Assembly: GCA_030035585.1 (NCBI GenBank)
Contig: CM057482.1
Coordinates: 59,834,828 to 59,898,827, forward strand
Length of the DNA stretch: 64,000 bases
Source: Dugong dugon
Taxonomy: Eukaryota; Chordata; Mammalia; Sirenia; Dugongidae
Direction: 5' to 3'
In this document: positions 22,799 through 45,994 of the stretch, one piece after another
Position numbering within the stretch: the stretch's first letter is position 1
Layout of the letters: every line of letters begins with the position of its first letter
Translations under genes and position numbers: made by a program
Notes under the pieces: generated by a model
What the model was told of the DNA's origin: nothing
Databases searched by the model: none
What the model saw: the letters and a program-made list of their open reading frames with translations, nothing else

Positions 22799-23660
22799 AC
22801 AAAATGTGGTACATACATAAAATGGAATACTACTCAGCCAGTAGGACAAATGAAGACTTGATACATGCTACAATATGGATTATGCTGGGTGAAATAAGCC
22901 AATCACAAAAGGACAAATACTGTATGATCTTATTTATATGAAAAGACAAGAAACGTCAAACATAGAGAACAAAGTTTACTAGTGGTTACCAGGGTCAGGA
23001 TGGAGGGGGAAAAGTGGGATTAGGGTGATAAAAATATTCCGCTGATTAAGGGTAGGTTTGCACAACCAATTATTGTAATTGCTGTCAGTAAGTTGTACAC
23101 CTGTAAAAAGTTGAATTGGCAAAAGTTGTGATTGATATAACAATGACAAAAAAAAAAAAAAAAAGAAACTGTAGCTGCCGTGGCTGATTATGTACAACCA
23201 AAAACCTCATGGGATTTGGTTTCTTGGTTTGGAGGTTTAGGGTCATGGTTTCATGGGACGTCCAGTTAATCATCCTAATAACTTGTTCAGTGCTCTGTTC
23301 TACCTCTTAGTCAACACATAGTGCCTGGGATCTTAAAAGCTTGTAAGCAACCATCCAAGGCAAAACAATTGGTCTCTATTCACCTGGAACAACAGAGGAA
23401 GAAGGAGAGTTAGGAATAGGAGGAGGATATGGAAGGTGTGACTAATTGCTTGTATGGTATAACTGTCTCCTTTGCCATGAGACCAGAAGAACTGGATGGT
23501 GACCGGCTACCATTACTGAACATTTTGGTCAAAGATTTCATAGACGAATCCTGACCAACAGAGGGAAAATGCAGAACAGAATTTCAAATTCTTATGTACT
23601 CCAGACTTGCTGGAGCCATGAAGGTTGGATGAACCCTTGAAACTATTGCAATGGGATAAT

Positions 23661-26600
23661 TTTTTTTTTAATTGCATTTTAGGTGAAAGTTTACAGCTCA
23701 AGTTAGTTTCTCATACAAAAATTTATACACACGTTGTTATGTGACCTAGTTCCTATCCCTATAATGTGACCTCACATTCCTCCTTTCCACCCTGGATTTC
23801 CCGTGTCCATTCAACCAGCTCCTATCCCTTTCTGCCTTCTCATCTCACCTCCGGACAGGAGCTGCCTTTAGTCTCACGTATCTACTTGAACTAAGAAGCA
23901 CACTCTTCAAGAGTATCATCTTATGTCTTATAGTCCAGTCCATTCTTTGCCTGAAGAGTTGGCTTCAAGTTTTGGGTTAACAGAGAGTCCGGGGGACATG
24001 TCTTCTGGGGTTCCTCTAGTCTCAGTTAGACCATAAAATCTAGTCTTTTTACAAGAATTTGAGTTCTACACCCCACTATTCTCCTCTGCCATCAGGGACT
24101 CTCTGTTGTGTCCCCTGTCAGCGCAGTCATTAGTGGTAGCCGGGCACCATCTAGTTCTTCTGGTCTCAGGCTGATGGAGTCTCTGGTTTACATGACTCCT
24201 TTTGTCTTTTGGGCTAATGTTTTCCTTGCGTCTCTAGTGTTCTTCATTCTCCTTTGCTCCAGGTGGGTTGGAACCAATTGATGTATCTTAGATGGTCGCT
24301 CACTAGCGTTTAAGACCCCAGACACCACTCACCAAAGTGGGATGCAGAACATTTTCTTAATAAACTTTGTTATGCCAATTGACCAAGATGTCCCTAGAAA
24401 CCATAGTCCCCAGACCCCTGTACCTGCTACACTGTCCCTTGAAGTGTTCGGTTGTGTTCGGGAAAGATCTGAGCTTTTGGTTTAGACCAGTTGTGCTGAT
24501 TTCCCCTGTAGTGTGTGTTGTCCTTCCCTTCGCCTATGATGATTCTTATCTACTATCTAGTTAGTAAATAGCCCTCACCCTCCCTCCCCACCCTCATAAC
24601 CATCAAAGAATGTTTTCTTCTGTGTTTAAACCTTTTCTTGAGTTCTTATAATAGTGGTCTCATACAATATTTGTACCTTTGTGACTGGCTAATTTCACTT
24701 AGCATAATGCCTTCCACATTCATCCATGTTATGAGCTGTTTCATGGATTCATCATTGTTCTTTATCATTGCATAGTATTCCATTGTGTGAATATACCATA
24801 ATTTGTTTATCCATTCCTCCAATATGGGCACCTAGGTGGTTTCCATCTTTTTGCTATTGAGAACACTGCTGCAATGAACATTGGTGTGCATATATCTATT
24901 CTTATGACAGCTGTTATTTCTCTAGGATATATTCCAAGGAGCGGGATTGCTGGATCTTATGGTACTTCTATTTCTAGTTTTTTAAGGAAGCGCCAAGTCA
25001 ATTTCCAAAGTGGTTGTACCATTTTACATTCCTAGCAGCAGTTTATAAGTGTTCCAGTCTATCCACAACCTCTCCAACATTTATTAATTTGTGTTTCTTG
25101 GATTAATGCTAGCCTTGTTGGGGTGAGATGGTTTCTCATTGTAGTTTTGATTTGCATTTCTCTAATGGCTAATGATCATGAGCATTTTCTCCCGTATCTG
25201 GTAGCTGCCTGAATGTCTTCTTTGGTGAAGTGCCTGTTCATATCCTTTGCCCATTTTTTAATTGGGTTATTTGTATTTTTGCAGTTTAAGTTTTGCAGTA
25301 TCTCATAGATTTTAAAGATTAGACCTTGATCAGATATGTCATAGCCAAAAATTTTTTTCCCAGTCTGTAGGCTGTGTTTTTACTCTTTTGGTGAAGTCTT
25401 TTAATGAGCATTAGTGTTTGATTTTTAAGAGCTCCTGGTTACCTAGTTTCTCTTCTGGTGTATATGCATTGTTAGTTATGGTTTCTATTCTGTTTGTGCC
25501 TTGTATTAAGGCTCCTAGCATTGTCTCTATTTTTTCTTCCATGATCTGTATTGTTTTAGATTTGATATTTAGGTCTTTGATCCATTTTGAGTTAGTTTTT
25601 GTGCATGGTGTGAGGCATGGATCTTGTTTCAGTTTTATGCAGATGGGTATCCAGTTATGCCAGCACCATTTGTTAAAGAGACTGTCTTTTCTCCAATTAA
25701 CAGACTTTGGGCCTTTGTCAAATATCAGCTGCTCATAGGTGGATGAATTTACTTCTGGATTCTCAATTCTGTTCCACTGGTCTACATATCTGTTTTTTGT
25801 ACCAGTACCAGGCTGTTTTGACTACTGTGGCAGTATCATGGTTCTAAAATCAGGTTGTGTGAGGCCTCTCACTTTGTTCTTCTTCTTCAGTAATGCTCTA
25901 CTTATCTGGGGCCTCTCATCTTTCCATATGAAGTTGGTAATCTGTTTCTCCAGCTCATTAAAAAATGTCGTTGGAATTTAGATTGGGATTGCATGGTATC
26001 TGTAGATCGCTTTGGGTAGAATTGACATTTTCACAATGTTGAGTCTTCCTATCCATGAGCACGGTTTGTTTTTCCACTTATGCAGGTCTCTTTTGGTTTC
26101 TTACTGTAGAGTCTTGTAGTTTTAATTGTATAGGACTTTTATGTCTCTGGTTAGATTTATTCCTAAGTATTTTATCTTCTTGGGGGCTATTGTAAATGGT
26201 ATTGATTTGGTGATTTCCTCTTCGAAGTTCCTTTTGTTGGTGTAGAGGAATCCAACTGAGTTTTGTTTACCTTGTATCCTGATACTTTGCTGAAATCCTC
26301 TGTTAGTTTCAGTAGTTTTTTTGTGTATTCTTCAGGATTTTCTGTGTATAAGATGATATCATCTGCAAATTGGGATACTTTTACTTCTTCCTTGCCAATT
26401 TGGATGCACTTTATTTCTTTTTCTAGCCTAATTGCTCTGCCTAGGACCTCCAGCACAGTGTTGAATAAGAGTGTTGATAAAGGGCATCCTTGTCTGCTTC
26501 CTGTTCTCAAGGGGAATGCTTTCAGACTCCATTTAGGATGATGTTGGCTGTTGGCTTTGTAAAAATACCCTTTATTATGTTGAGGAATTTTGCTTCTATT

Positions 26601-28759
26601 CCTATTTTGTTGAGAGTTTTTATCATGAATGGGTTTTGGACTTTGTTGGATGCCTTTTCTGCATTGATTGATAAGATCATGTGTTTGTCTTTTGTTTTAC
26701 TTATGTGATGGATTACATTGATTGTTTTTCTCAGGTTGAACCATCCCTGCATACCTGGTATGAATCCCACTTGGTCATGGTGAATTATTTCTTTGATATG
26801 TTGTTGAATTCTATTGGCTAGAATTTTGTTGAAAATTTTTGCATCTATGTTCATGAGGGATATTGGCCTGTAATTTTCTTTTTTTGTGGTGTCTTTACCT
26901 GGTTTTGATAACAGGGTTATGCTGGCTTCATAGAATGAGTTTGGGAGTATTCCACACTTTTCTATGCTCTGAAATGCCTTAATAGTAGTGAAAGTTTGGT
27001 AGAACTCTCCAGTGAAGCCATCAGGTCCAGGGCTTTTTTTTGTTGTGAGATTTTAACTATCTATTTAATCTCTTTTTTTGTTATAGATTAATTTAATTGT
27101 TCTACCTCTGTTTGTGTTAGTTTACGTAGGTAGTGTGTTTCCAGAAATTTCTCCATTTCCTCTAGGTCTTCAAATTTGTTGGAGTATAATTTTTCATAGT
27201 ATTCTGTTATGACTCTTTTAATTTTAGTTGTGTCTGTATCACCCATCTCATTTCATATTCAGTTTACTGCTTCCTCTCTCTTGTTTTTCTTTTGTCAGTT
27301 TGGTCAATGGTTTATTGATTTTGTAGATCTTTCAAAGAACCAGCTTTTGGTCTTGCTAACTCTTTCAATTGTTTTTCTGTTCTCTATTTTATTTAATTCT
27401 GCTCTAATTTTTATTATTTGCTTTCTTCTGGTGCTCAGGGGCTTCTTTTGCTGCTCTCTTTCTACTTGTTCCAGTTGTAGGGTTAATGTTTTGATTTTGG
27501 CCCTTTCTTATTTTTGAATGTGTGCTTTTGTTGCTATAAACTGACCTCTGAGCACTGCTTTTGTTGTGTTCTAAAGGTTCTGGTAGGATGTGTTTTCATT
27601 CTCATTTGATTCTGTGAATTTCTTTATTCCTTCCTTAATTTCTTCTATAACCCAGTTGTTTTTGAGCAAGGTGTTGTTCAATTTCCATGTATTTGATTTT
27701 TTTCCCTTGCTTTTTCTGTTATTAATTTCTACTTTTATGGCCAGAAAAGATGCTTTGTAATATTTCGATGTTTTGGATTTTGTTAAGGCTTGCTTTGTGG
27801 CCTAATACGTGTTCCGTTCTGGAGAATGTTCCATGCGTGTTGGAAAAGAAAGTATACTTGGCTGCTGTTGGGTGGAGTGTCCTGTATATGTCTATGAGAT
27901 CACGTTGGTTGATTGTGGCATTTAGATCTTCCGTGTCTTTAATGTTCTGTTCGTCACCGAAAGTGGTGTATTGAAATCTCCTACTATTATTGTGGAGTTG
28001 TCTATTTCTCTTTTCAGTACTGTTAGAGTTTGTTTTATGTATTTTAGAACCCTGACTTTGGGTGTGTAAATATTTACTATGGTTATGTCCTCCTGGTGTA
28101 TTGACCCTTTAATCATTTTATAGCGTCTTTCCTTACCCTTTGTGGTGGATTTTGCTTTAAAATCTATTTTGTCAGAGATTAATATTGCCACTTTTGCTCT
28201 TTTTTGAATGTTATTTGCCTGATATATTTTTTCCCTTCCTTTGAGTTTTAGTTTGTTTGTGTCTTTAAGCCTTAGGTGTGTCTCTTGAATACAGCAAATA
28301 GAGGAATTGTGGTTTTTTAATCTATTCTGCCACTCTCTGTCTCTTTATTGGTGCATTTAGTCCATTTACATTCAGTGTAATTATTGATAGGTATGAGTTT
28401 AGTGCTGTCACTTTGATGTATTTGTGTGTGTGTGTTGTTGACAGTTTCTTTGTTCCACTTAATATTCTGTGCTGAGATATTTTTCTATATGTATTTTCTT
28501 TTCGTCTTTTTCCCTGTTGCTGATTTTGTATTTGGTGAGTCTTTATGATTTTCTGTTTTTTCATTTTGATGGGTAGGATTGTCAGTTTCCTTTGTGGTTA
28601 CCTTGATATGTACCCCTGTTTTTCTAAGTTTAAACCAATCTATTATTTCTTTATATTGTCTTTACTTCCTCTCCATAGGAAAGATGTATGACTGTATTTT
28701 TAGTCCCTATTTTTGTTTTAATGTTGTCATCTTTTACATTTTTATGTCTCCGTTTCCCT
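23661..28759 (-). mobile_element. Outer full-length L1 of the nest, 3' half
   Basis: Minus-strand L1. Its A-tail appears as the T-run after 23660 (about 23661-23669), followed leftward-in-element by the 3' UTR (to about 24640) and the whole of a decayed ORF2. The target duplication GGGATAAT (23653-23660) pairs with GAGATAAT (44727-44734). The element is cut at 28759 by the inner L1, which duplicated TCTCCGTTTCCCT (28747-28759) and TCTCTGTTTCCCT (42229-42241), and resumes at 42242. Taking the two halves together it is about 7.6 kb, a full-length L1. Confidence 0.9.
24646..28414 (-). pseudogene. Outer L1 ORF2 (endonuclease/reverse transcriptase), decayed
   Basis: Read on the minus strand from about 28414 (LNSYLSIITLNVNGLNAPIK, the start of the endonuclease), through IIVGDFNTPLS (27922-28191), the RT block [14 protein letters not shown] (26522-26854), [20 protein letters not shown] and the palm [14 protein letters not shown] (26187-26510, with the FADD catalytic box), to the C-terminal EEWINKLWYIHTMEYYAMI (24646-24831). 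About 3.8 kb, the normal ORF2 length. Many frameshifts and stops lie between the pieces, so it is inactive. Confidence 0.9.
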
Positions 28760-29739
28760 TTTTTATTTATCTATTTTTATTGTCTTTATGTGAAGGTTTA
28801 CAAAACAAACCACCTTCTCATTAAATAGGTAGTTCAAATATTGTTTTATGACATTGGTTAACAACCCCATGACATGTCAGTACACTCCCTTCTCAACCTT
28901 GGTTTCCCTATTACCAGCTTTCCTGTCCCCTCCTTCTAGTCCTTGCACCTGGACTGGTGTGCCCCTTTAATCTCATTTTGTCCTATGGGTCTCTCTACTC
29001 TTTGGCTAAAAGGTGAACCTCCAGAATGACTTGATTATTGAGCTCAAAGTGTGTACAGGGGCCACAATCTCGGAGTTTCTCCAGTCACTGTCAGGCCAGT
29101 AAGTTTGGTCTGTTTTTTTTGTTTTTGTTTTTTTTTTGAGTTAGAATTTTGTTCTACATTTTTCTCCAGCTCTGTCTGGGGCCCTCTATTGTGATCCCTG
29201 TCAGTGGTGGTAGCTGGGCACCATCTGGTTGTACTGGTCTCAGTCTGGCGGAGGCTGCAATATTGTGGTCTATAAGACCTTTGGACTACTCTTTCCCTCG
29301 TGTCTTTAGTTTTCTTTATTTTCCCTTGCTACTGAAGGGGTGAGGCCAGAGGAGTATCTTAGATGGCCAATCACAGGCTTTTAAGACCCCAGATGCTACT
29401 CACCAAAGCAGAATGTAGAACATATTCTTTATAAACTATATTATACCAATTGAGCTAGATGTTCCTTGAGACCATGGTCCCCACAGCCCTCAGCCCAGTA
29501 ATTTGGTCCCTAAGGGAGTTTGGAATTGTCCATGGAGATTCCATGACCTTACTCTGAGCACGTTGTGCTGGCTTCCCCAGTATTGTGTACTGTCTTATCC
29601 TTCACCAGAGTTACCACTTATCTATTGTTTATTTAGTATTTTTCCTCCCCACCCCTACCCTCCCTCATAACCATCAAAGATTGTTTCTTTTTGTGTGTAA
29701 ACCTTTTCATGAGTTTTTATAGTAGTGGTATCATACAGT

Positions 29740-32669
29740 ATTTGTCCTTTCATGATTGACTTATTTCACGCAGCATAATGTCCTCCGATTCATCCATCTT
29801 CTGAGATGCTTCGCAGATTCATCATTGTTCTTTATCATTGCATAGTATTCCATTACGTGTGCATACCATAGTTGTTCATCCATTCATCTGTTGATGGACA
29901 TCTAGGTTGTTTCCATCTTTTTACTATTGTGAACGATCTTGCAGTGAACATGAGTGTGCATATGTCTTTTCATGTCACAGCTCTTATTTCTCTAGGATAT
30001 ATTCCTAAGAGTGGTATTGCTGGATCGTATGATATTTCGATTTCTAGCTTTCCAGGGAAGCAGCGTATCGTTTTCCAAAATGGTTGTACCATTTTGCATT
30101 CCTACCAGCAGTGCATAAGAGTTCCAGTCTTCCCACAGCCTCTCCAACATTTGTTATTTTCTGTTTTTTTGATTCCTGCCAGTAATGCTGGGGTGAGCTT
30201 GTATCTCATTGTGGTTTTAATTTGCATTTCTCTGATGGCTAGTGATCACGAACATTTCTTCCTGTGTCTGTTGGCTGCTTGAATGTCTTCTTTGGTGAAG
30301 TGTCTGTTCATTTCCTTTGCCCATTTTTTAATTGGATTATTTGTCTTTTTTTGTAGAGGTGTTGGATTTTCCTGTAGATTTTTGAGATTAGACCTTTGTC
30401 AGATTTGTAATAGCCAAAATTTTTCCCAGTCTGTAGGTTGTCTTTTAACTCATTTGATGAAGTCTTTTGATGAGCATAAGTGTTTAATTTTTAGAAGATC
30501 CTAGTTATCTAGCTTATCTTCTGAAGTTTGTGTGTTGTTAGTTATGTTTGTATCCTGTTAATGCCATGTATTAGGGTCTCTCGCATTGATCCTATTTTTT
30601 CTTCTATGATCTTTATAGTTTTGGATCTATTTAGGTCTTTGATCCATTTTGAATTAGTTTTTGTGTATGGTGTGATATATGGGTCCTATTTCATTTTTTT
30701 GCAGATGGACATCCAGTTTTGCCAGCACCATTTGTTAAAAAGATTGTCTTTTCCCCCATTTGATGGACTTTGGGACCTTGTCAAAGATCAGGTGACTGTA
30801 GGTGGATAGATTTACATCTGGGTTCTTGATTCTTTTCCATTGGTCTATGAATCTGTCATTGTACCAATACCAGGCTGTTTTGACTACCGTAGTCATATAG
30901 TAAGTTCTCAGGTCAGGTAGTGTGAGTCGTCCTTCTTTATTCTTCTTCTTCAATAATGCTTTACTTATCTGGGGCCTCTTGCCTTTCCATATAAAGGTAA
31001 TGATTGTTTTTTCCATCTCTTTAAAGAATGTTGCTGGTATTTGGATCCAGATTACATTGATTTGTAGATTGCGTTGGGTAGAATCATCATTTTCACAACG
31101 TTGAGTCTATCTATCCATGTGCATGGTATATTTTTCCGTTTATGTATATCTCTTTTGGTTTCTTGTTGTAGTGTTTTGTAGTTTTCTTTGTATAGGTCTT
31201 TTACATCCCTGGTTAGATTTATTCCTAAGTATTTTTTTTAGGGACTATTATAAATGGTATTGTTTTTCTGATTTCCTTTTTGTTGTTCTCTTTGTTGGTG
31301 TATAGGAATCCAACTGATTTTTGTATGTTTATCTTGTATCCTGCTACTCTGCTGAATCTTTCTATTAGTTCCAGTAGTTTTCTCGTGGAGCCTTTTGGGT
31401 TTTCTATACATAGTATCATATCATCTGCAAATAGGGACAGTTTAACTTCTTCATTACCAATTTGGATGCCCTTTATTTCTTTTTTTGCCTTATTGCTCTA
31501 GCTAGGTCTTCCAGCACAATGTGAAATAGAAGTAGTAATAAAGGTCATCCTGGTCTTGTTCTTCTTCTCAACGGGAATGTTTTCAGCTTCTTTCCATTAA
31601 AAATGATGTTGGCTGTTGGTTTTGTATAGATTCCCTTTATTATGTTGAGGAATTTCCCTTCTATACCTATTTTTGAGAGTTTTTATCATGAATGGGTATT
31701 GTACTTTGTCGAATGCCTCTTCTGCATCAATTGAGATGATCATGTGATTATTTCCTTTTATTTATGTGGTGGATTACGTTGATTGATTTTCTAATTGATT
31801 TTCTAACCATCCCTTCATACCTAGTATGAATCCTACTTGGTTGTGATGTATTATTTTTTTGATATGATGCTGAATTCTATTGGCTAGAATTTTGTTGAGA
31901 ATTTTTGCATCTATATTCATGAGAGATATTGGCCTGTAATTTTCGTTTTTTGTGGTGTCTTTGCCTGGTTTTGGTATCAGGGTTATGCTGGCTTCATAGA
32001 ATGAATTCGGAAGTGTCGCTTCCCTTTCTATGTTCTGAAATAATTTGAGTAGTACTCAAATAATTTGAGTAGTAGCTCTTCTCTGAATGTTTGGTGGAAT
32101 CCTCCAGTGAAGCCATCTGGGCAGGGGCTTTTTTATTGGGAGTTTTTTTTATTACCTTTCCAATTTCTTCTCTTGTTATGGGTCTGTTCAGATTTTCAAC
32201 ATCAGTTTGTGATAGTGGGTAGGTAGTGTATTTCTAGAAATTTGTCCATTACCTCTAGGTTTTCAAATTTCTTGTAGTATAGTTTTTCATAATACTCTGT
32301 TATGATCCTTTTTATTTCAGTTGGGTCTGTTTTAATGCCCCCCATTTCATTTCTTATTTGGGTTATTTGCAGCCTCTCCTTTTTTTCTTTTGTCAGTTTG
32401 GCCAGTGGTTTGCCAATTTCATTGATTCTTTCAAAGAACCAACTTTTGGTTTTGTTGATTCTTTTTATTGTTTTTCTATTCTCTATTTCATTTATTTCTG
32501 CTCTGATCTTTATTATTTCCTTTCCTCTGGTGGCTGTAGGCTTCTTTTGCTATTCTCATTCTATTTGTTCGAGTTGTGTAGCTAATGTTTTGATTTTGTC
32601 TCTGTCTTCTTTTTTGATGTGTGCTTCTTTTGGTATAAATTGGTCTCTGAACACTGCCTTTGCTGTGTT

Positions 32670-32677
<8 letters not shown>
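29740..32677 (-). pseudogene. Inner L1 ORF2, C-terminal two thirds, decayed
   Basis: Pieces include an RT palm neighbourhood ([20 protein letters not shown], then [20 protein letters not shown], at 31225-31419), the KTIITFIWKGKRPQISKALL block at 30735-31016 and ORF2 C-terminal sequence to the left. The first third lies beyond the PDK1 retrocopy at 36453-37305. Confidence 0.88.
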
Positions 32678-32701
<24 letters not shown>

Positions 32702-34342
32702 TGGAAGAGACTTTTATTTAAAAGGTATATATTTACAAAACCTAAATTGATCCAATTTATTTTCAAAATAAGGGTTGAACCATGTTTTCAGTTTATTGCC
32801 ATACAGAAAACATTTTATAAAATAATATAGTGGACTTCCATTTCAACATCTTCATGTAAAAATTTCAGTGCAAGAAAATGATCAGTGTTAAGTGTGAAGA
32901 CAACTAAAGCCAGATAGTATTTTAAGAATGTGTTTGCTATCCCCTCCTAAAAAATGTTGGCACATACGTTAACTGCTCAGATTATAAAAATCACTTAGTA
33001 TCCATTTCTTATCCTTTGATACATTTTTATGTCTACACTGCATTGATTAATCCTGGTGGAGAAAACAGCTCACTTAAGAATCTAAAAATCTTTTCAGGTA
33101 TCACAGTGATTTAAAATAAACTAGAAGAAAGCTCTACCCAAATATTTTGTTTGTAATCTTCTGTCCATTACCACGATAATGAAGTCAAAAGTCATTATAC
33201 CTTAAAAAGAAGCTAAAGCAAACACTTTTCCTTTGAAAATACCATTTCTTAGCTCTTAAATAAAGAGGAAAATTTTCTCTTAATTCTTGGGGGGGGAGGA
33301 GTGTTTCATAAGTAGAAACATCAATTTTGTTGGTTGTACAAATGCCTCATTTATGAAAAAACTGAATACTTTGAAAGGATTCTAAAATATTTTGTCAATT
33401 CAAGTGTAGATTAAAGTTAAAAAACAGAAACACGTTAAACTAATCCAAATTACCCATTAACATATTCTATTACTTTTCACAAAATCCACGATTAAGGAAC
33501 AATAGGTTAGGTAAAATATCTCTTTTTCCAGCATTTGGTCAGACTAGCTAAAATGCCTCAGGCAAGCCACATAATCCGCCATCTCAGGATACCCATCTAT
33601 CAAATGAGGGCACTGGACCAACTGTCCTTCCATATCTCCTCCATCCTACAAATGTGTATAGATTTGTTAATTTTACATAATATTTTAGAGAATGAGGTGT
33701 TCCAACTTAATGCATTTCCCAGATAAATAAATCTTCCCTGTTTAAGTGGCAGCTGTACTTTAAACATTGAAGATTTAACTTTTAAATATATTTCCCTGTC
33801 ACTTAAAAGAAGATGAGGTGTGACTAAAAATAGTGTCCTAACATCTCCCAGAGTTTGCAGCTGACCAAGTGGTTCACAGACATGGATTGGGCCCTAGCTC
33901 AAATTCCTTGCAACTTTGGGCCCAAATGTGAGTCTTAAAACAAGGATGATACCACCTGCTCTGATTCTCACTGTTTTGAAGACCAATAGAGTTATTATAT
34001 ATCAAAGTATTTGTAAACTATGTATTACCATTCAAACGTAAAGGATTGTTGTGATTAACCCAAGTTGACATTTTCCTGTCAAATGAATCAGGATATTTTG
34101 ATAAACTATATGTTCCTATGTCAGGACTTAAGCATTTATGGTTCTGATGCTTCAGTTATCTGACTATTCTCTAACAGTCATTTTGTTCTCCTTCTAATTC
34201 GTTGCTTTATCTTTCAGTTGCACCAGGCCTGAGACACAAGTTCTTTCTTCTATAGTCTAGAAATCTGACCTGTAAATAGGCAGAAACCAAAACTCAAACA
34301 ACCGTCTGTTACTTCAGTGAATGTGGTATCACTATTCACTTT

Positions 34343-34505
34343 AAAGGAGTGGTTTCTTAACTATGAGCATCAGGCTCACCTAGGAATCTTTTTAAACTTG
34401 AGATTCCCAGGTTCCAGGCCTACTGACTCTGATTCAGTATGTCTGAGGTAGGATCCGGAAAAAATTGTTTCTCAAAAGCTCCCCCAGGTAATTTCAGTAG
34501 CCAAT
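34343..34505 (+). mobile_element. MER5A (hAT-Charlie MITE) within the PDK1 retrocopy 3' UTR
   Basis: GTGGTTTCTTAACTATGAGC at the left and AAGCTCCCCCAGGTAATTTC at the right match the two ends of MER5A, with CTGACTCTGATTCAGTATGT in the middle. It lies within the 3'-UTR part of the retrocopy, so it was probably carried in with the mRNA rather than inserted afterwards. Confidence 0.75.
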
Positions 34506-35420
34506 TCTTTGGGATTCACTGCTTTTTCCTCCATATTGTCTTTAGAATTTTAGTAGTCATTAGTTTGCTTGTTTTTAAGATTAAAATGTCCCCTTGCATT
34601 AACCTCATGCACACTGGGAGTTGAGTGCCTATGACCTTGGCTTAGACACACAGAGCTATTTGTTACAATTTTTTGCAAGAAAATTTTTGAAATGATAAAT
34701 TAACTTCAGAGCTAAGACAATGTGTGTAGATGCTGAAAGGTAGCAGGTTTTACACTTACAGGGCAGCTGTGTTCTGCTTTAGGGTTAGGGTCAGTCACTG
34801 GCACATAAAGACCATCTTATTATACTTGTCATTGGCAGAACTCCTCCAAATCACAGCTAGCCAGTTTTATTCAGAAAATATTTCTAGCAGACATACATGA
34901 AAAGTATTTTTCAAAACTACACAGCTTCCTGTAGAAAACCAAAAACTTCTGTGCTTCTGAAGTCAACCATAAGGAGGATAGTGGACCCAAACACAGTTGT
35001 TTAAAAATATGCTCAACTAACTGTGAAAATATAAGTGTAAAATAGGAACAATTTCATCCTTTAGGAAGTTTAACTGGCACAAATGGAATTCAGTTTCCAT
35101 TTATTCTACCCAAACATTTAATTATGAAAATGACACATGAAGTATTTGGTCTAACACAGTTCTGAACACCTTCCATTCCAAATTTTGCACAAAATCCATG
35201 TTTGGATTTTCCAGGTGTCCCAAGTATATCTAGGCACTGTGAAACATTGTAATGTCTTTTGATTCTCTGCTTGGGACGCACCAGTCATCAGCCTCTTGGT
35301 TGATGTTGTAAAGCTTCCAGGCAGCTTTGTTGTACACTGGGAGTCTTTCTATTGATTCTGTTGATAGAGCCTTAAGGTAGATAACTGTATCTGTCCCATA
35401 GCCCTCGAGGGAATACAGCT

Positions 35421-35885
35421 TTAGGTTACCTTGGAAGTACTAGGCATAAAGACGAGATATGGGCAATCCACAACCAAAACCAGCCAGTGGCACTGCTCGG
35501 GACGTCTCAACAAGAGGCTGGAGTGCAGTTGAATACAAGTAGTTGAAGAGTCCTCAGTTTTCCTCAGAAGAACACCACCTCCACAGTCACTCATCTTCAT
35601 AGTCAAATCCTCATTACCTAGTGTGATGTGAACTTGAATAGGGGGGTAAACACATCTGTCAGCATGGTATTCCATAGTTGCTCTCATTGCATTCTTGAAA
35701 AGTTCAAACACCATGTGATAGAGATGGGATGCTACATAAACCACTTGTATTGGTTGTCCTGGTGATTTTGCATTTATTTCTTCAAGTTTCAGTCCCGGAG
35801 AGATAATGTAATATAAATCACATAGATGCGTAGCATTTTCATAGCCATCTTTAATAACTTCAACTATGTTACAGTTTGGATTCAT
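35421..35885 (-). pseudogene. PDK1: PDK1 retrocopy, kinase ATP-binding (GHKL) portion
   Basis: The longest intact stretch, 154 codons. It starts [20 protein letters not shown] and covers the histidine-kinase-like ATP fold: the N-box region ([14 protein letters not shown]) and the G1-type [18 protein letters not shown], where the family's DRGGGVPLRK is changed to [10 protein letters not shown]. After RKTED the frame shifts; the true PDK sequence ([13 protein letters not shown] and onward) continues in another frame to 35230 with at least one internal stop. Confidence 0.93.
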
Positions 35886-35964
35886 GCTTCCAATGTGTTT
35901 TCAATGAGAAGGACTTCCTTTGCCTTTACCACCAAACAATAAAGAGTGCTGAATGAGTAACATT

Positions 35965-36213
35965 CTAATCAAAATGATCCAAAAAATACTGAACATTCTG
36001 GCTGGTGACAGAATCCACCCCGAAGCTCTGCTTATGCTCATTCACACGCTGGACCATTGTGGGAATGACGTCATTGTGTTGGTTTCTGATCCCTATCACA
36101 GTACTTGTAAAGTCATAAATAGCTTTAGCATCTTCAGTGCTTTTGTCCTTAAAATCAGGAAGCCCCTGAAGACTCTGGATATATGAGCTTTGTACCAATT
36201 GAACGGATGGCAT
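35965..36213 (-). pseudogene. PDK1: PDK1 retrocopy, N-terminal helical-bundle portion
   Basis: 82 codons: PSVQLVQSSYIQSLQGLPDF, KDKSTEDAKAIYDFTSTVIG, RNQHNDVIPTMVQRVNEHKQ and SFGVDSVTSQNVQYFLDHFD, the regulatory four-helix region of PDK1. Upstream codons (a VDACEKTSFVFLWQKLPVRL-like reading to 36325) also match. Just after HFD a few codons of the family's next motif are deleted with a frameshift, followed by an in-frame stop before the INPN block. Confidence 0.92.
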
Positions 36214-36325
36214 CCTGAGAAGATTATCTGGAAAGAGACTTATTTCTTTATTATGTTTGCCAATCTAACAGGTAACTTTTGCCACAGAAACACAAATGAG
36301 GTCTTTTCACAAGCATCCACAGATC

Positions 36326-36440
36326 CTGAAACCAAACATGGTAGGAAAAGCAGTAAGTAGAAACCATCAGACAACTAAAACCACAAGAAAGAAAGAAGTT
36401 ATCTGGTGGGGCCAAGAGAGGTAGAATCACCATAATGATC
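36326..36440 (-). other. Intron-like 5' leader of the PDK1 retrocopy
   Basis: On the minus strand this segment ends in a pyrimidine-rich run and GGTTTCAG, directly before the first coding match at 36325 (GATCTGTGGATGCTTGTG). That is the form of a splice acceptor in front of exon 2. It does not resemble the GC-rich, targeting-peptide-coding exon 1. The copied RNA therefore seems to have started in, or retained the end of, intron 1. Confidence 0.65.
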
Positions 36441-36452
36441 TGTCCCAAAGGT

Positions 36453-37305
36453 TTTGGTATGATGTGTTTTCATTCTCGTTTGATTCTAGGAATTTTTTTG
36501 GTTCCATCTTTGATTTCTTCTATTACCCAGTGGTTTTTAAGCAGGGTGTTATTTAGTTTCCATGTAATTGATTTTTTTTCCTTGCTCTTCCTGTTGTTAA
36601 TTTCTACTTTGATGGCGTTGTGATCAGAGAAGATACTTTGTATTATCTCAGTGTTTTGTATTTTGTTGAGGATTGCTTTGTGGCCTAAGGTATGGTCTAT
36701 CCTGGAGAACATTCCATGTGCATTGGAAAAGAATGTGTACTTTGCAGCTATTGGGTGGGGTGTTCTATATATGTCTGTGAGTTCAAGTTGGCAGATTATG
36801 ATCTTTAGATCTTCTGTATCTTTGTTGAGTTTCCTTCTAGATGTTCTGTCCTCTACCGAGAGTGGTGTGTTGAAGTCTCCCACTATTATTGTGGAACTGT
36901 CGATTTCTCTTTTCAGTGCTGTTAGAGTTTATGTATTTTGGAGCCCTGTCATTGGGTACATAGATATTTATTATGGTTATGTCTTCATGCTGGATCATCC
37001 CTTTAATCCCGATATAGTGCCTTTCTTTGTCTTTTAAGGTGGATTTTGTTTTAAAGTCTATTATATCTGAGATTAGTATTGCCACACCTGCTCTTTTTTG
37101 GGTGGTTGTTTGCTTGAAATATTTTTTCCATCCTTTGATTTTTAATAGATTTATATGTTTGTTTCTAGAATATGTCTGTTGTAGACAGCATACTGATGGA
37201 TCCTGTTTTTAAATCCATTCTGTCACTCTCTGTCTCTTTATGGGTGCATTTAGGCCATTTACGTTCAGTGTAATTATTGATAGACGTGAGTTTCTTATTG
37301 TCATT
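36453..37305 (-). pseudogene. Inner L1 ORF2, endonuclease third
   Basis: From about 37305 (TIRNSRLSIITLNVNGLNAP) through NIYVPNDRAPKYI to MGDFNTPLSVEDRTSRRKLN and FSRIDHTLGHKAILNKIQ (36470-36883). GDFN and S-R-I-D-H are the endonuclease active-site motifs. It is cut at 36452 by the PDK1 retrocopy and resumes at 32677. Confidence 0.9.
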
Positions 37306-37759
37306 TTGTAGTGCTTTTTTTGTGGTGCTGACAATTTCTTTGTTCCTCTTACTCTTCTGTGCTGAATTCCTTTTGTTTGTGGATTTTTTTTCATTTCTTT
37401 TGTTCTTGTAGATTTTGTTTCTACAGAGACTTTATGTTTTCCTCTTAATTTTTATGAGTAGGTTTGTTAACTTTCTTTGTGGTTACCGTGAAATTTACCC
37501 TTATATTTCCAAGTTTGAAGCAGTCTATTATCACTTGGTATGGCCTTGCCTTCCTCTCCATTAGAAGGTTCTATACCTACACTGTTTATTCCCTCTTTTA
37601 TTGTTCTGACGTTGTTGTTATTTGCAGATTAACCTCTCTGGTTCCTTGATATAAATCTTTTGGTTTTGAATAGTCCTTAAGATTTCATTTCCTAGATTGG
37701 TATCTGACTGGTGCAGTCTTGCTTCCTAGATTCAGGCTGTCATCTGATGTTGTTTGTTA

Positions 37760-38792
37760 TCAAACCAAAGGACTCCCTTTTATAATTCATGTAAGTTTGG
37801 TTTGGTTTTTATATATTCCCTTAATTTCTGTTTATCTGGAAATGTCCTAATTTCACCATCACTTCTGAACAAGAGTTTTGCAGGATATATTGTTCTTTGT
37901 TGGCAATTTTTTTCTTTCAATATTTTATATATGTAATCCCATTGCCTTCTTGCCTGCTTGGTTTCTACCAAGTAATCAGAGCTTAGTCTTATTGTTTCTT
38001 CTCTGTATGTGACTTTTTGTTTTTCTGGAGCTGCTCTCGGGATTCTTTCTTTGCCTTTGGTTTTAGTGAGTGTGATTATGATAAGCTTTGGTGATTTTCT
38101 TTTCGTGTCTATCCTATATGGGTTTTTTGAGCTTCTTGGATGGTCAGCTTTTCATCTTTCATAGTATTAGGGAAGTTTTCCATCAGCAATTCTTTAATGA
38201 TCCTCTCTGTGTTTTCCATTTTCTCCCCCTGTTCTGAAACTCTGATCGTTTGCAGATTTTTGCTTTTGATTGTATCCCACATAATCCCCAGGGTTTCTTC
38301 ATTTCTCTTTGTTCTTTTCTCTTATTTTTCTTCAAATTAAGTTGTATCCAAGTGTTTGTCTTCAGTTTTGCTAATACTGTCTTCCATTGTTTCAAACCTG
38401 TTCTTCAGCCCCTCTATGACACTGTCCATTTCTGAAATCTTGTTATTTATCTTTTGGATTTCTAATTGTTGTTTTGTATGATTTCTAGTTGTGAATTTAT
38501 TTTGGCATTTTGTTCCTGTGTTATTTTCCTGAGTTTTTCCATTTTTTTGGCCTGTATATTCCATGTATTTGTCTATTTTTTCCTCATTTTTGTCTGCTTT
38601 TTGCTTCAACTCTTGGATAGCTGTCAATATTAGAGATTTGAATTCCCTGTCAGGTAGTCCTAGTGCTTTTTCTTCTTCTGGAAAGTCATCTGGTGTTTTC
38701 TTTTGGATGTCTACTGGAACCATCCTGTCCTGTTCTTTTATGTTTTGATATTGTCTGCTGTCTTCAGGACATTTAGTAGTTATTTTCTTCAT
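37760..38792 (-). pseudogene. Inner L1 ORF1 (RNA-binding chaperone), decayed
   Basis: The N-terminal 151 codons (38337-38792) start MKKITTKCPEDSRQYQNIKE and run into a coiled-coil zone, QQLEIQKINNKISEMDSVIE and GLKNRFETMEDSISKTEDKH. The C-terminal domain is recognisable at 37780-37971 (WDYIYKILKEKNCQQRTIYP, AKLLFRSDGEIRTFPDKQKL, REYIKTKPNLHEL), typical of the L1 ORF1 CTD. The middle part, with the RNA-recognition fold, is frameshifted. Confidence 0.88.
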
Positions 38793-39351
38793 TTATTGAT
38801 TGTAGATTTAATTGTTTCACCCTGATCTTTTGTTTTATTTGGTTACATCTGAGCAGGTGGGCTATGCATTCTTTGCTGTTTACATGTCTGTGGACATGAT
38901 ATTTTTTCACCTTGATCAATGGGCAGGTCCAGTCGCTCAGCTATGTTGCAGGAGGGCAGGTGGAGCTGAAGGTTAGATGCTGGGATGGGTCGTTTGTGGC
39001 ACATGCTTGTGCCAACAAGATGAGTCAGTGGTCAGTGCAGGGTAGGTTCCAGTAGGCTGTGCCTGTGCTGCTTGGGAGTGCAATGTTCAGCACATGGTGC
39101 AGATAGGCAGGAGGGGGAAAGGGGAGGTTGTGATGTGTGGAGCTACATTGGGTATGGAAAAGAAGAGAGAGAGGAGAAAGAAACAGGAGCAAAAAAAAGT
39201 GCTGAGTGAGCTTGCCGTTGGAATGGAGGGACATGAAAAACTAAACAAAAAAAAAAAAAATTAAAGGAAAAAAAACTGCAGTATAGCCTGGCTAGAAGGG
39301 GTGGAGATTATGTTCAGGAGACAGGAAAAGAAGGACAGCAGAAAGAGATAG
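38793..39351 (-). promoter_or_regulatory. Inner L1 5' UTR, part adjoining ORF1
   Basis: G-rich region upstream of ORF1 that continues beyond the MaLR insertion at 41365-42228. L1 5' UTRs carry an internal RNA polymerase II promoter; this copy is interrupted and presumably silent. Confidence 0.7.
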
Positions 39352-39828
39352 TGTCATGGTTTGAATTATGTCCCCCCAAAAATGTGTGCATCAGTTTGGC
39401 TAGGCCATGATTCCTGGTACTGTGTGATTTTCCTGTATGTTGTAAACCTGCCTCTATGATGTTAATGAGGGAGGACGGGTGGCAGTTGTTAGTAAGGCAG
39501 GACCTGATCTACAAGACTGGATTGTGTCCTGAGGCAATCTCTTGAAATATAAAAGACAGAAGTGAGCAGAGAGACAGGGGGACCTCATACCATCAAGAAA
39601 GCAGTGCCAGGAGCAGAGCGCATCCTTTGGACCAGGGTCCCTGCATGGAGAAGCTCCTAGTCTAGGGGAACACTGATGAGAAGGCTGAGAGAGGGAAAGT
39701 CTTCCCCTGGAGCTGACACCCTGAATTTGGACTTTTAGCCTACTTTAACTGTGAGGAAATAAGCTTCTCTTCATTAAAACCATCCACTTGTGGTGTTTCT
39801 GTTATAGCAGCACTGGATGACTAAGACA
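39352..39828 (+). repeat. MaLR 5' LTR
   Basis: 477 bp, TGTCATGG...AAGACA. A CTTCATTAAAACCATCCACTTG polyadenylation-type region precedes the final GTTATAGCAGCACTGGATGA block. Differs from the 3' LTR at about 8% of the first 240 bases by my eye count. Confidence 0.9.
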
Positions 39829-40023
39829 GAATTTGGTACCAAAAGTGTGGTGCTGCTCCAACAGACACCTAAAATGTGGAAGCAGTTTTAAAACTGTGAA
39901 TGGATAGACGTGCAGCAGTGACAGAGGACCACCAGCAGCAGAGAACCTACAGCAGCAGAGAAGCAGCAGCAGCAAAGAACCAACAGCAACAGAACCAGGA
40001 GACCGGTTCGAGACAGCACCGGA

Positions 40024-40217
40024 GCCAACCCACGGAGTGAGAGAGCTGAGTGCCTGTGCAATGGAGGCTTCCTGGAGGAGTGGGGTGCCTCCGGGCACTT
40101 ATCAGTGGAGCTAGGCTTGCCAACCCACAGAGCAAGGGAGCTGAGTGCCTGTGCGCAGGAGGCTTCCTGGTGGAGTGGGGTGCCTCCAGCCACTTATACT
40201 GGTGGAGCTACAGAGCT
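40024..40217 (+). repeat. Tandem duplication of about 95 bp in the MaLR interior
   Basis: The unit beginning GCCAACCCACGGAGTGAG at 40024 is repeated from 40119 (GCCAACCCACAGAGCAAG). Both units hold GAGCTGAGTGCCTGTGC and GGAGTGGGGTGCCTCC. Confidence 0.88.
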
Positions 40218-40889
40218 TTGGAACACTTGCCCCAGCAGGGCAGATGTGGGCATGAGGCCCGAGGGCCAAGAGGCCACAGGAAACAGAAGCAGAAGCTGAA
40301 GAGACAAGGGACACAAGAAGCCAAGCTGCTTCAGCCTCAAAAGGTATGGCCATGACCTCAGGGGTTTCAGAGGGTGGAGCCATGGCCTCTGGTGTTTCTA
40401 AGGGTGGAGTTGTCACTCCGATGGACTAGGAGAATGGTGTGCCTAAAGCCAAGGGAGCAGAGTTGCTGTCCCAGTGGGCCTGGAAGGCGGAGCTGAAGCC
40501 CAGGGCCAAGGGGCCTCCACTCAAATCCAGACTGTGGCCAATACTTAGAGTCTGGAGGGCAGGGCTATTGTGTAAATTGCTTCAGAGAACAGAAGATTAT
40601 TTTCAAAGCATTGAGGGCTAATGTAAATGTGTTCTGCTGACTTGCTTGGTGCCTGTTATCACTTCTTTTCCTCTAGTTTCTCCCATTTGTAATGGAAATG
40701 TCTAACTTGTGCCTGTTCTGCCATTATACCTTACCTTTGGAAGCAAATAACTTGTGTTCTAGATTTCACAGATGAAGAGGAATTTTTGGATTTTGGACTT
40801 GGAATTAGGACTTTTGCTATGATATGATGAGATGAATATGTTTTCCATGTTGCAAAGATGTGATTTTTTTGGGGGGCCAAAGGGTGGAA

Positions 40890-41364
40890 TGTCATGAATT
40901 GAATTATGTCCCCCAAAAATGTGTGTATCAGTTTGGCCAGGCCATGATTCCTGGTATTCTGTGATTTTCCTATATGTTGTAAATCCTGCTTCTATGATGT
41001 TAATGAGGGAGGATGGGTGGCAGATGTGTTAGTAAGGCAGGACTGGATCTACAAGACTGGATTGTGTCCTGAGGCAATCTCTTGAGATATAAAAGACAGA
41101 AGTGAGCAGTGAGACAGGGGGACCTCATACCATCAAGAAAGCAGTGCCAGGAGCAGAGTGTGTCCTTTGGACTGGGGTCCCTGCACCGAGAAGCTCCTAG
41201 TCCAGGGGAACACCGAACAGAAGAAGGCCGACAGAGAGAAAAAGGCTTCCCCTGGAGCTGATGCCCTGAATTTGGACTTTTAGCCTACTTTAACTGTGAT
41301 TTGTCTTTGTTAAAACCATCCACTTGTGGTATTTCTGTTATGGCAGCACTAGATGACTAAGACA
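40890..41364 (+). repeat. MaLR 3' LTR
   Basis: 475 bp, parallel to the 5' LTR along its whole length. It is preceded by a polypurine-like AAAGGGTGGAA at about 40879-40889, the expected site for plus-strand priming. Confidence 0.9.
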
Positions 41365-41369
41365 GATGG

Positions 41370-42228
41370 GAAACAGAGAAATGAAGAAAAATAAAATGGA
41401 AAAAAGAAAGAGAAGACAAACAAAAAAAGAAAAAGAAAAAAAGCCCCCAGGGATCCCACCAGCATGGCCACACAGACCAGGGAAGTGGACTGGGAAGCAG
41501 TTCCCCAGCTGAGCAGCCCTTCACAGCCCATCAAGAAGACACAAAGATGGCACACAGAGTCAGGTGTTCAAGAGAAAGGAGGGGGAGGAGGTGATAGGCA
41601 GGGAATTAACCAAAAGAGGCCGAAGAAAGCAATACCAGCAAGAAAGAAATGGCACTGAAGAAGCCAGCCAGTGTGCGTGAGGCAAATCTGCACGGCACAG
41701 AATCAGCGCCTCCTGTGCCGTGGCTGGGGCCCACTGGGAAGCAGCAGATTGGCCTGCCAGGAAGCCAGGAATTGGCCTGCCAGGAAGCAGTGAATCGACC
41801 CTCCAGGAAGCTGGGAATCGACCCATCAGGAAGCCAAGGATCGGCCAGCCGGGAAGCGGCAAAGGTTGAGCAGTGGGAGGCAGGGTAGGGGGTGGGAAAG
41901 TGTGTCTTGCTGGTTACCAGTTGTTCTGTCTCCTCCTGGGAGCTCTGTGAATATGCTTTCCCATACTCCCTGTCCACTGATCTCTGACAGGAGTCCCAGA
42001 TGGTGGGTCTGAGCTGTGTTAGCTGATAGGGGACCTCTGCTTGTAACTCTCCTCACTGTCTGTTCTCTGTCAGTTTCTTATTCCATTCAGTGCTTGGTTG
42101 AGTTCTTTATCTCATTTGATGATTAGGGTTCCAGGATTGACGTTTGTCTCTGTTTTACTTAGTTTTTGGGGTCTTTACTGTGGAGGGATGGCTTGTGCTT
42201 CTGTCTATGGCGCCATGTTGGCTCCACC
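41370..42228 (-). promoter_or_regulatory. Inner L1 5' UTR, distal part with the L1 start
   Basis: G+C-richer than its surroundings. The element starts at 42228 (minus) with GGTGGAGCCAACATGGCGCC. It includes a 23-bp minisatellite at 41748-41862. This is where the L1 promoter would lie. Confidence 0.8.
41748..41862 (+). repeat. Minisatellite, five units of 23 bp, in the L1 5' UTR
   Basis: Units begin at 41748, 41771, 41794, 41817 and 41840. Each reads approximately ATYGGCCTGCCAGGAAGCCA plus three more bases; units 1 and 2 are near-identical and the others more diverged. Confidence 0.92.
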
Positions 42229-42342
42229 TCTCTGTTTCCCTATTTTCAGTGTTTTAGCTTTGATTTCTTTTTGTGACTTCCCTATCTGGGTTTATATCTG
42301 GTTGCTCTGTCCTGTGTTCTAGTCTTGGGTTGTTATCTGATG

Positions 42343-43307
42343 TTATTGATTTTCTAACCAGAAGACTCCCTTTAGTATTTCTTGTAATTTTGGTTTGGCT
42401 TTTGCAAATTCCCTAAACTTCTGTTTGTCTGGAAATACCCTAATTTCACCATCATATTTGAGAGACAGTTTTGCTGGATATGTAATTCTTGGCAGGCAAT
42501 TTTTTTTCTTCAAGGGTTTATGTATGTCATCCCATTGCTTTCCTGTCTGCATGCTTTCTGCTGAGTAGTCAGAGCTTAGTCTTATTGACTTTCCTTTATA
42601 TGACTTTTCATTTATCCCTAGCTGCTCTTCAAATTCTCTCTTTATCTTTGGTTTTGGCAAGTTTGATTATAATATCTCTTGGTGACTTTCTTTTGGGATC
42701 TACCTTGTGTAGGGTTTAATGAGCATCTTGGATAGATATCTTCTCATCTTTGATGATATCAGGGAAATTTTTTCCAGCAAATCTTAAACAATTCTCTATG
42801 TATTCTCTGATATCCTCCCTGTTCTAGTACTCCAATCACTCGTAGGTTATTCCTCTTGATAGAGTCCCACATAATTCTTAGGGTTTCTTCATTTTTTAAA
42901 ATACTTTTATCTGATTTTTCCTCAAATAAGTTGGTGTCAAGTGCTTTATCTTCAGTCTCTGTAATTCTGACTTTCATTGCCTACATTCTGCTCCTATGAC
43001 TTTCTATTGTGTTGTCTAATTCTGAAATTTTATTGTTAATCTTTTGGATTTCTGTTTTCTGTCTCTCTATGGATTCTTGCAGCCTGTTGAATTTGTCCTT
43101 ATGCTCTTGAATAACCTTCTTAAGTTCCTCTATTGCTTTGTCTGTGTCTTCCTTGACTTGTTCTGCATTTTGCATGATATCCTTCTTGATTTCTTGAAGA
43201 GTTCTGTGTATTAGTCTTTTGAATTCTACCTCTGGTAATTCCAAGAAGTTGTCTTCCTCTGGAAAGTTTTTTGATTCTTTGTTTTGGTGGCTTGCTGAAG
43301 CCATCAT
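42343..43307 (-). pseudogene. Outer L1 ORF1, decayed
   Basis: The N-terminal 108 codons (42981-43307) carry a long heptad-like coiled coil: EEDNFLELPEVEFKRLIHRT, EIKKDIMQNAEQVKEDTDKA and RQKTEIQKINNKISELDNTI. The C-terminal 105 codons (42343-42660) carry QWDDIHKPLKKKNCLPRITY, PAKLSLKYDGEIRVFPDKQK and FREFAKAKPKLQEILKGVFW, the ORF1 CTD. The two halves are out of frame, with a fragment at 42759-42977 between them. Confidence 0.9.
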
Positions 43308-44720
43308 GGTCTGCCTCTTTGTGTGATTTGATATTGACTGTTGTCTCTAAGCCATCAATAAGTTGTTATATTTATTTATTTGATGTTTGCTTACTGTGTC
43401 CTAGCTTCTTGTTTTGTTTTGATATGCCTAAATAGGCTGGTCGTGTAGGCTAGTTTGATTATTGGCATCTTTGATGCTCTCATGTACTGTCTCTAGATGG
43501 CTAGAGCTGTTACTAGGTATGTGAGCCCATGAGTCCACTTACTTGTGTGGATTCAGCTCAGGTGTCCAGGTCTTTGGTCACTGACTGTATGGTGCAGGCT
43601 GTCACCTACAGTCCTAGATGGGCAGGGATCGTTGGAGTAGGCACAGCTATGTGGTTGCAGTAGGGCATCATATTCTGAGCAAAGCAGGGCACTGACAGCT
43701 GTCTCTGAGTGTCTCGGTGGAAGGTGTGTCTCTGTTCCCTAGAGTGGGTAGGTAGATGGGTTTCACAGCTGGACTATGGGCACCCAATGCTGTTTGCCAT
43801 AAGGACTGGGAGTCACCACTTATTCTTGGACCCCTGTCGTGGGTGGCTTGGTGGAGTTGATGGAGCCACCAGTCCTCAGCCTCCTGATGTGCCTAGGTGA
43901 GAACCCTGCTTACTGGGCAAGGCAGTGTCAGATGTCACAAATCTGCCACTCCCCCTTATAGCAGATACAGATGAAAATAGGCTTCAGGTATATACTCTGG
44001 TGTACGGTGCTAATGAGGGCCTATGCTGTTGATATCGGCCCACACGGGTCTACACAGGGGTGAAAGGCATTCAAAATCCAAGGACCCCTTAGGCTTGTGC
44101 CTACACAAAGCGGCTGTACCTGCTCTCAGTTCCTGGCTTAGGGGAACTGGCAGGTTACTTTTTCCTGTTTGTTAATTTGATCCTTCTCCAAAGCTGGGAG
44201 AATGGCTCAGGGAGCATGAAGAGGCCTACTTCTGGCCCAAGGGGGTGCAGCAATCTCTGAAGCCAGACCAGGACCTGGAGCAGAGCGAGGAGGGAGCAGG
44301 TAATTGAGAGAGAAGTATTTCCCAAAAGAAGGTTTCTTTTTTTTTGATCTGTGTGGTAGGATAGATGTGGTACTTATCTTCGCTGATTGAGCACCATTTC
44401 TCATTTGTTCTGGAGGTTTGAGCTGACTCTCCACTACTCAGTCTCACCTGATGTGGAAAATGCATCCTGAGTACCACTGCTTGCCTCTCGGCTTGTGACA
44501 GCCAATCCAGCCTGCAGGGTGCCTGCTCCCACTGGCAACTCTTCACTGCTTCTAAACAATCTCTCCCTCCCACTGAAGCTCAGTTTGATTCCTCAACTTT
44601 GTCTTTGATGTTCAGGCTCCTGGATTGTCATATATAATAGATTCACTTGTTTTGGGGGGTCTTTATTGTAAAAGGGGCCACAGGAAGCTTCTGATTACTC
44701 TGCCATCTTGGCTCCACCTC
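43308..44720 (-). promoter_or_regulatory. Outer L1 5' UTR
   Basis: About 1.4 kb upstream of ORF1, moderately G+C-rich, ending in the L1 start motif (GGAGCCAAGATGGCAGAGTA on the minus strand), the YY1-site position of L1 promoters. Short frames of 63-115 codons within it are not genes. Confidence 0.8.
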
Positions 44721-44726
44721 CACCAA

Positions 44727-44891
44727 GAGATAATCTTTCAATCTTAAACCCAAAATATCCCCTGAAGTCTTCTTAAAACCAAACAACAGTTTAGGTTAAC
44801 TAGAAAAAATGTCTGCCTTAAGCATTATGCTCCTTTAAGAACTATCTGTATGAGATCAAAGTGACAACAACAACTCAAAGACATTATATAA
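44727..44891 (+). mobile_element. Continuation of the old L1 3' UTR cut at 23660
   Basis: GAGATAATCTTTCAATCTTA through GAAGTCTTCTTAAAACCAAA and ATTATGCTCCTTTAAGAACT matches positions 17975-18120 of the related 3' UTR and picks up just where 23660 breaks off. It is the outermost layer of the nest and is itself cut near 44891 by the next L1. Confidence 0.85.
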
Positions 44892-45994
44892 TGATTAAAA
44901 GGTAATCCACCAAGAGGAAATAACCATGATAAGTATATATGCATCCAACTACAGAGCTCCAAAATGCATAAAACAAACTCTAAACACACTGAAAAGAGAA
45001 ATAGACACTTCCACAATAATACCAGGAGACTTTAACACACGACTGTTGGTGAAGGACAAAACAACTAGGAAGAAATTGAACAAAAACACATAAGACCTAA
45101 GTACCACAATCAACCATCTTGACCTCATAAACATATACAAAGCACGTTACCAAACAGCAGCAAAGTACACATTCTTCTCAAATGCTCATGGATTATTCTC
45201 CAGAATAGACTACATTTTAGGCCACAAAGCAAGCTTCAACAAGTTCAAAAACATCAAAATAATACAAAAAATCTTCTCTGATCAGAGCACCATAAAAGTA
45301 GAAATCAATAAAAGGAAGACCAAGTGAAAAAGATTTAATAAATGAAAACTAAATTACACCTTCCTTAAAAACTACTGTGTAGTAGAAGAAATCAAAGATG
45401 AAAATTAAAAAATTCCTAGAATCAAGTGAGAATGAAAACTCAACACGCCAAAACCTGTGGGACACAGCAAGAGCAGGGCTCAGAGGTCAATTTATAGCAA
45501 TAAACAATCACATCAAAAAAGAAGGATAAAAATTAAAACATTAACCCTACAACTCAAACAATTGGAAAGAGAGCAGCAAAAGAAGCTTATGGTCACCAGA
45601 AGAAACAAAATAATGAAAATTAGAGGAGAGATAAATGAAACAGAGAACAGAAAAACAATAGAAAAAATCAATAAGAATTTAAAGCTGGGTTTTTTTTAAA
45701 GGACTTATAAAAGTGACAAACCACTGGCCAAATCAACAAAAGAAAAACAGAAAAAGATGAAAATAACCCAAAAAAGAAATGAGATGGGTAACATTGCAAC
45801 AGAACCAACTGAAATTAAAAGCATCATGAAAAATTGTACTCCAAAAAAATTGAAAACCTAGAGGAGATGGACAAATTTCTGGAAACATGTCATCTACCTA
45901 AACTAACCAAACCGAGGTAGAAAATTTTAACAGACCCATACAAAAGAAAAAAAAAAAAAATTAAAGAGATCATTAAAAAAAAAAAAAACTCCTA

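Follow-up and report, generated by a model that had tools for sequence, protein, structure and literature searches.

A four-level nest of retroelements with two full-length L1s, a disabled PDK1 retrocopy and a MaLR-like LTR element

Elements of the nest

The window analyzed here is a stretch of 64,000 nucleotides from Dugong dugon in which a sequence-only reading had placed a nest of four retroelement levels at positions 23148–44891. The outermost level is the 3′ end of an old L1 on the forward strand. Its left part at 23165–23660 (81% identical to 17510–17986 and 78% to 2914–3381) ends in the left copy of the outer target-site duplication (23653–23660, probably reaching 23664), and its right part at 44727–44895 (86% to 17975–18142 and 82% to 3423–3589) starts with the right copy (44727–44734, probably to 44738). 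Two further copies of this element lie in the window at 2914–3783 and 17506–18324. We identify the old element as an L1 3′ end because a fragment near 51.3 kb resembles both this element (68%, with 64% to its 17.5 kb copy) and the 3′ UTR of the outer L1 (73%). In the copies at 2914–3783 and 23112–23660, several hundred bases follow an internal A-run, after which the 2.9 kb copy has a second A-tail; read-through that went beyond an earlier poly(A) and so extended the 3′ UTR would leave such a pattern. The old element is without its last ∼190 bases past 44895, and a forward-strand L1 fragment starting in ORF2 begins at 44877–44895. A continuation of the old element, which would mark a further outer level, was found neither among self-comparison matches of at least 150 bases nor in 49801–50100, past the end of the forward-strand L1 near 49932.

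The outer L1, on the reverse strand, consists of a 3′ part at 23661–28759 (A-tail, 3′ UTR, ORF2 and part of the inter-ORF region, ending with the left copy of the inner duplication) and a 5′ part at 42229–44726 (the right copy of that duplication, ORF1, and the 5′ UTR with its 5′ end). The inner L1, on the same strand, is divided into three: 28760–32677, with a short A-rich tail, the 3′ UTR and most of ORF2, ending in the left copy of the PDK1 duplication (32666–32677); 36441–39351, with the right copy of the PDK1 duplication, the ORF2 endonuclease, ORF1 and part of the 5′ UTR, ending in GATAG; and 41365–42241, with the GATGG copy and the remaining 5′ UTR, which aligns to the 5′ end of the outer L1. 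After subtraction of the inserts, our recount gives 5099 + 2485 = 7584 bases for the outer and 3918 + 2899 + 872 = 7689 bases for the inner L1, in agreement with the earlier estimates of about 7.6 and 7.7 kb.

Eight L1 pieces were scanned against Pfam with curated cut-offs. Matches above the cut-off were RVT_1 (two pieces) and Exo_endo_phos in the 3′ part of the outer L1 (which is 78% and 76% identical to the inner L1), Tnp_22_dsRBD in its 5′ part, and Exo_endo_phos, Transposase_22 and Tnp_22_dsRBD in the middle part of the inner L1; the two ORF1 coiled-coil pieces had no matches above the cut-off and only unrelated models below it. The ORF2 endonuclease and an ORF1 RNA-binding domain are in this way confirmed in both elements. 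The reverse transcriptase is confirmed by domain in the outer L1 and rests on 78% DNA identity to it in the inner L1, where the scanned pieces lie elsewhere. The motif GGTGGAGCCAA[GC]ATGGC stands at the 5′ end of each element, and the first ∼120 bases of their 5′ UTRs align at 68% (E about 5e-4) while the remainder is unalignable. Based on this common motif and alignment, we regard both as full length, as previously claimed, each having a 5′ end, ORF1, ORF2 and an A-rich tail in the same orientation. The 5′ UTR divergence, together with identities of 70% on the ORF1 side and 76–78% on the ORF2 side and a Kimura two-parameter (K2P) distance of 0.38 between the 3′ UTRs, assigns them to different L1 lineages. 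They share with mammalian L1s the ORF1 RNA-binding-type domains, the ORF2 endonuclease and reverse transcriptase, the A-tail (short in the inner L1), the target-site duplication and GGTGGAGCCAASATGGC at the 5′ end, yet at ∼7.6–7.7 kb both are longer than the human L1 of ∼6 kb. A tandem repeat with a unit of ∼23 bases is located in the inner L1 5′ UTR at 41737–41857.

Within that 5′ UTR lies an LTR element on the forward strand (39352–41364), with LTRs at 39352–39828 and 40890–41364 separated by ∼1.06 kb. We take it as a putative member of the MaLR group (ERVL-MaLR), in line with the earlier reading. It resembles ERVL-MaLR elements in its TG...CA LTRs and its interior of ∼1 kb, and differs in the divergence of its LTR pair; in its flanking repeat, four of five bases match. 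The two LTRs are 88.5% identical. Compared over 39352–39825 and 40893–41364 (three bases short at one end each), 461 sites show 28 transitions and 12 transversions, a K2P distance of 0.093 (0.085 without CpG sites; 0.047 per copy), which suggests activity within the host's own lineage. Older MaLR members are described as mostly placental-wide, and MST/THE1 as primate-specific (PMC10735291). The putative MaLR element here would be a separate late lineage. In its interior, at 40024–40210, a ∼95-base repeat occurs twice, with 85% identity between the copies. Elsewhere in the window, a probable solo LTR (47042–47615, flanked by CTATC/CTACC) sits inside the forward-strand L1 of 44.9–49.9 kb, and its last ∼260 bases are 78–79% identical to the MaLR-like LTRs.

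Outside the nest, the segments at 14429–17074 and 55403–58971 are related to each other (80–84% alike, partly inverted), and the five pieces of them that were scanned gave RVT_1 in one and Exo_endo_phos_2 in one, both below the cut-off. By appearance we take these segments to be RTE/BovB-like. BovB elements have been found in afrotherians, ruminants, marsupials and monotremes (PMC5857283). Given this distribution, the segments would be compatible with an Afrotherian host but demonstrate nothing about it. A protein search with a piece of the inner L1 ORF1 was equally uninformative about the host, with three hits among four candidates, all of them unnamed ENA proteins at 50–51% identity. Scans of the window with Rfam at the gathering threshold and for tRNA genes gave no matches.

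The PDK1 retrocopy

The insert in ORF2 of the inner L1 is a disabled retrocopy of PDK1 on the reverse strand (32678–36440) with a poly(A), a polyadenylation signal, a 3′ UTR and a coding part at 36325–35230. The examined stretch ends 42 bases after the signal AATAAA, which is followed by the poly(A). Compared with PDK1–4 through matches in the PDB, three open pieces score best with PDK1 (213.7, 149.2 and 121.8 bits against 155.3, 101.1 and 95.3 for the respective next-best PDK), and the first piece does so by a narrow margin (35.7 versus 32.8 bits). Pfam identifies BCDHK_Adom3 above the cut-off in one piece and HATPase_c below it in another. The coding part is intronless, with the pieces from GSVDACEK to the C-terminus collinear within 36326–35230 and some stretches between them unmatched. 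Frame changes between 36252/36249, 35971/35948 and 35571/35490, and in-frame stops at 35901–35903 and 35440–35442, disable the copy.

The least ordinary detail of the nest is the intron-like start of this copy. Similarity to the PDK1 protein is clear from GSVDACEK onward, the alignment taking in three more residues with weak matches. The preceding 115 bases (36326–36440) have no protein match and end with a splice-acceptor-like TTTCAG; the glycine codon starts at 36326, at the last G of ...CTGCTTTTCCTACCATGTTTGGTTTCAG. Fifteen of the 20 bases before the acceptor-like CAG are pyrimidines. Since the window has 910 YAGG sites, counting both strands, and 56 of them (21/444 and 35/466) are equally pyrimidine-rich, the site is unremarkable alone, and what counts is its position at the edge of the protein match. 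We presume that an exon of PDK1 (exon 2) begins at this edge and that the 115 bases thus belong to intron 1. The stretch would then be the end of an intron, derived from an unspliced or internally started transcript, and another source for these bases is conceivable. More speculatively, and we think improbably on balance, the germline of the host lineage may have expressed a PDK1 isoform that started in, or retained, the end of intron 1 and that is now fossilized in the inner L1. The copy otherwise has the marks of a processed PDK1 pseudogene (intronless coding part, AATAAA, poly(A), duplication, frameshifts and stops). It departs from one at its start, where the intron-like stretch replaces the N-terminal codons.

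Junctions and divergence

The key evidence for nesting comes from comparing the window with itself (153 matches in all, of which those of at least 150 aligned bases were considered), because the window contains uninterrupted relatives of the interrupted pieces. The break in the old L1 at 23660 and its resumption at 44727, as proposed from the sequence alone, are spanned by both uninterrupted copies. The 17.5 kb copy aligns to 23201–23664 (81%) and 44727–44895 (86%), and these alignments overlap in the copy by 12 bases (17975–17986), the trace expected of a target-site duplication. The 2.9 kb copy aligns to 23112–23592 (78%) and 44727–44890 (82%); its left local alignment ends 60 bases before the junction, and a global alignment bridges this gap, with identity in 63 of 80 columns about the joint. 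The proposed break of the outer L1 at 28759, resuming at 42242, is likewise borne out by the inner L1, which is uninterrupted there and aligns up to 37615 and again from 37632, a step of 17 bases equal to that in the outer L1 (28727–28744) when a single copy of the repeat is included. Only the inner L1 attests that the outer halves form one element, and the self-comparison has no other match of at least 150 bases to the outer 5′ part. The outer L1 in turn aligns on both sides of the PDK1 insert (24092–27578 to 29175–32677 at 78%, and 27567–28727 to 36441–37615), with a 12-base overlap at 27567–27578. The rejoined flanks thus align continuously to one L1, the outer flanks end to end with the inner L1 and those of the old element with its two uninterrupted copies.

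All flank strings quoted earlier lie where they had been placed: GGGATAAT at 23653 and GAGATAAT at 44727 for the outer junction (the latter 8-mer occurring additionally at 17975 and 35800), TCTCCGTTTCCCT at 28747 and TCTCTGTTTCCCT at 42229 for the inner, TGTTCCAAAGGT at 32666 and TGTCCCAAAGGT at 36441 for PDK1, and GATAG (39347–39351) and GATGG (41365–41369) for the LTR element. Among 20000 random pairs of window positions, a count that includes skipped pairs less than 2000 bases apart, a repeat as good was found 356 times for the outer, 6 for the inner, 32 for the PDK1 and 10781 for the LTR-element junction. The first three repeats are rarer than chance; from these counts, the support given by the outer repeat is moderate and that of the LTR element alone means little.

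Joined flanks were identical to their relatives at 254 of 294 aligned positions (old L1, 17.5 kb copy), 234 of 277 (old L1, 2.9 kb copy), 206 of 300 (inner in outer) and 248 of 295 (PDK1 in inner). With 300 random right flanks per test, a weak control judged by maximum and mean only, the true scores and random maxima were 343.5 and 331.5 (mean 81), 251 and 240 (mean 25), 110 and 358.5 (mean −9), and 323.5 and 259 (mean 58), respectively. The random maximum therefore falls short of the true score by no more than 12 points in two tests, lies further below it for PDK1, and exceeds it for inner in outer, where a random flank presumably struck the target itself. Because this control is weak, the inner junction rests on the two local alignments, the equal 17-base step and the flank repeat.

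If the flank repeats are continued across the A-run, accepting one additional mismatch in each, the nick sites read CTTT/CA, TTTT/CA and TTTT/GG, which we read as near the consensus site of the L1 endonuclease. This site is given as TT|AAAAA (PMC2517846). A-runs at the 3′ ends are long in the outer L1 and the PDK1 copy, while the inner L1 has six As within an A-rich stretch. These A-runs at L1-type 3′ ends, together with the target-site duplications and the continuity at three junctions, make it very improbable that recombination or segmental duplication among L1 copies, or a misassembly, produced part of the arrangement, an explanation favored by the many L1 fragments in the window in both orientations and by the truncation of the old element where another forward-strand L1 fragment begins.

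No relative in the window spans the LTR-element junction, and the two pieces of the inner L1 5′ UTR across it matched only themselves and two short internal repeats (E up to 0.01). This insertion rests on the paired LTRs, the TG...CA ends and the placement. That no window relative shows the inner L1 5′ UTR free of the element would allow it to have arrived within the source copy of the inner L1, a reading that concerns the last layer only and that we consider slightly less probable still, since transcription would have had to carry along 2 kb of LTR element within the promoter region; an insertion made here later is consistent with the four-of-five repeat and the two complete LTR ends.

Sequence divergence was assessed as a second clock, with the terminal branch taken as an upper bound on the time since insertion. 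In three regions, the branches are 0.130, 0.087 and 0.127 for the outer and 0.065, 0.096 and 0.122 for the inner L1, the lowest values being 0.087 and 0.065. The LTR divergence of 0.047 per copy is smaller than all of them. At neutral rates of 1–2.2e-9 per site per year, this value would make the LTR element about 21–47 million years old, and distant orders would be expected to lack it. The inner branch is the shorter in two of three regions, and the C-terminal ORF2 region runs the opposite way (0.096 versus 0.087), so divergence is compatible with the nesting order and is no proof by itself. Dating each layer in this manner was set aside, as it yields upper bounds only and one of three regions is without the expected direction.

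Order of insertion and meaning

Nesting alone gives the order old L1, outer L1, inner L1, and then the PDK1 copy and the LTR element. This upholds the sequence proposed before, with the last two lacking an order between themselves, and the resulting clock is ordinal. Four independent duplications had been invoked for it; three are independently supported, and that of the LTR element is not.

We conclude with high confidence that the locus records nested insertions, made one after another at the same place by independent retroposition events in the germline. The full-length outer L1 struck the 3′ end of the old L1 and was in turn struck by the inner L1, which is also full length but belongs to a different lineage. 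Later, a PDK1 transcript was copied, probably by the L1 machinery, into ORF2 of the inner L1, and the 5′ UTR of that L1 would have received the MaLR-like LTR element. Uninterrupted relatives and target-site duplications document the outer, inner and PDK1 steps, and we infer the LTR step from the structure and placement of that element. The germline setting of these events and the role of L1 proteins in copying PDK1 are likewise deductions.

Nested insertions and the chronologies drawn from them are established. Nested transposable elements serve as a chronology in TinT and interruption analysis. They are described as numbering thousands in present-day genomes (PMC3014933) and have been used for selection tests (PMC2517846). 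As in those systems, element-in-element insertions yield a relative order here, but all four levels, two full-length L1s among them, stand at one locus. Among the titles listed by the literature searches, none names this locus. Nothing suggests a function for the assembly, which opens no new question and is a good new example of a well-known kind, with no new principle. With two full-length L1s of different lineages, a measurable LTR pair and a retrocopy in a fixed order, it is a clean calibration example, and its layers each provide a presence/absence marker in related species.
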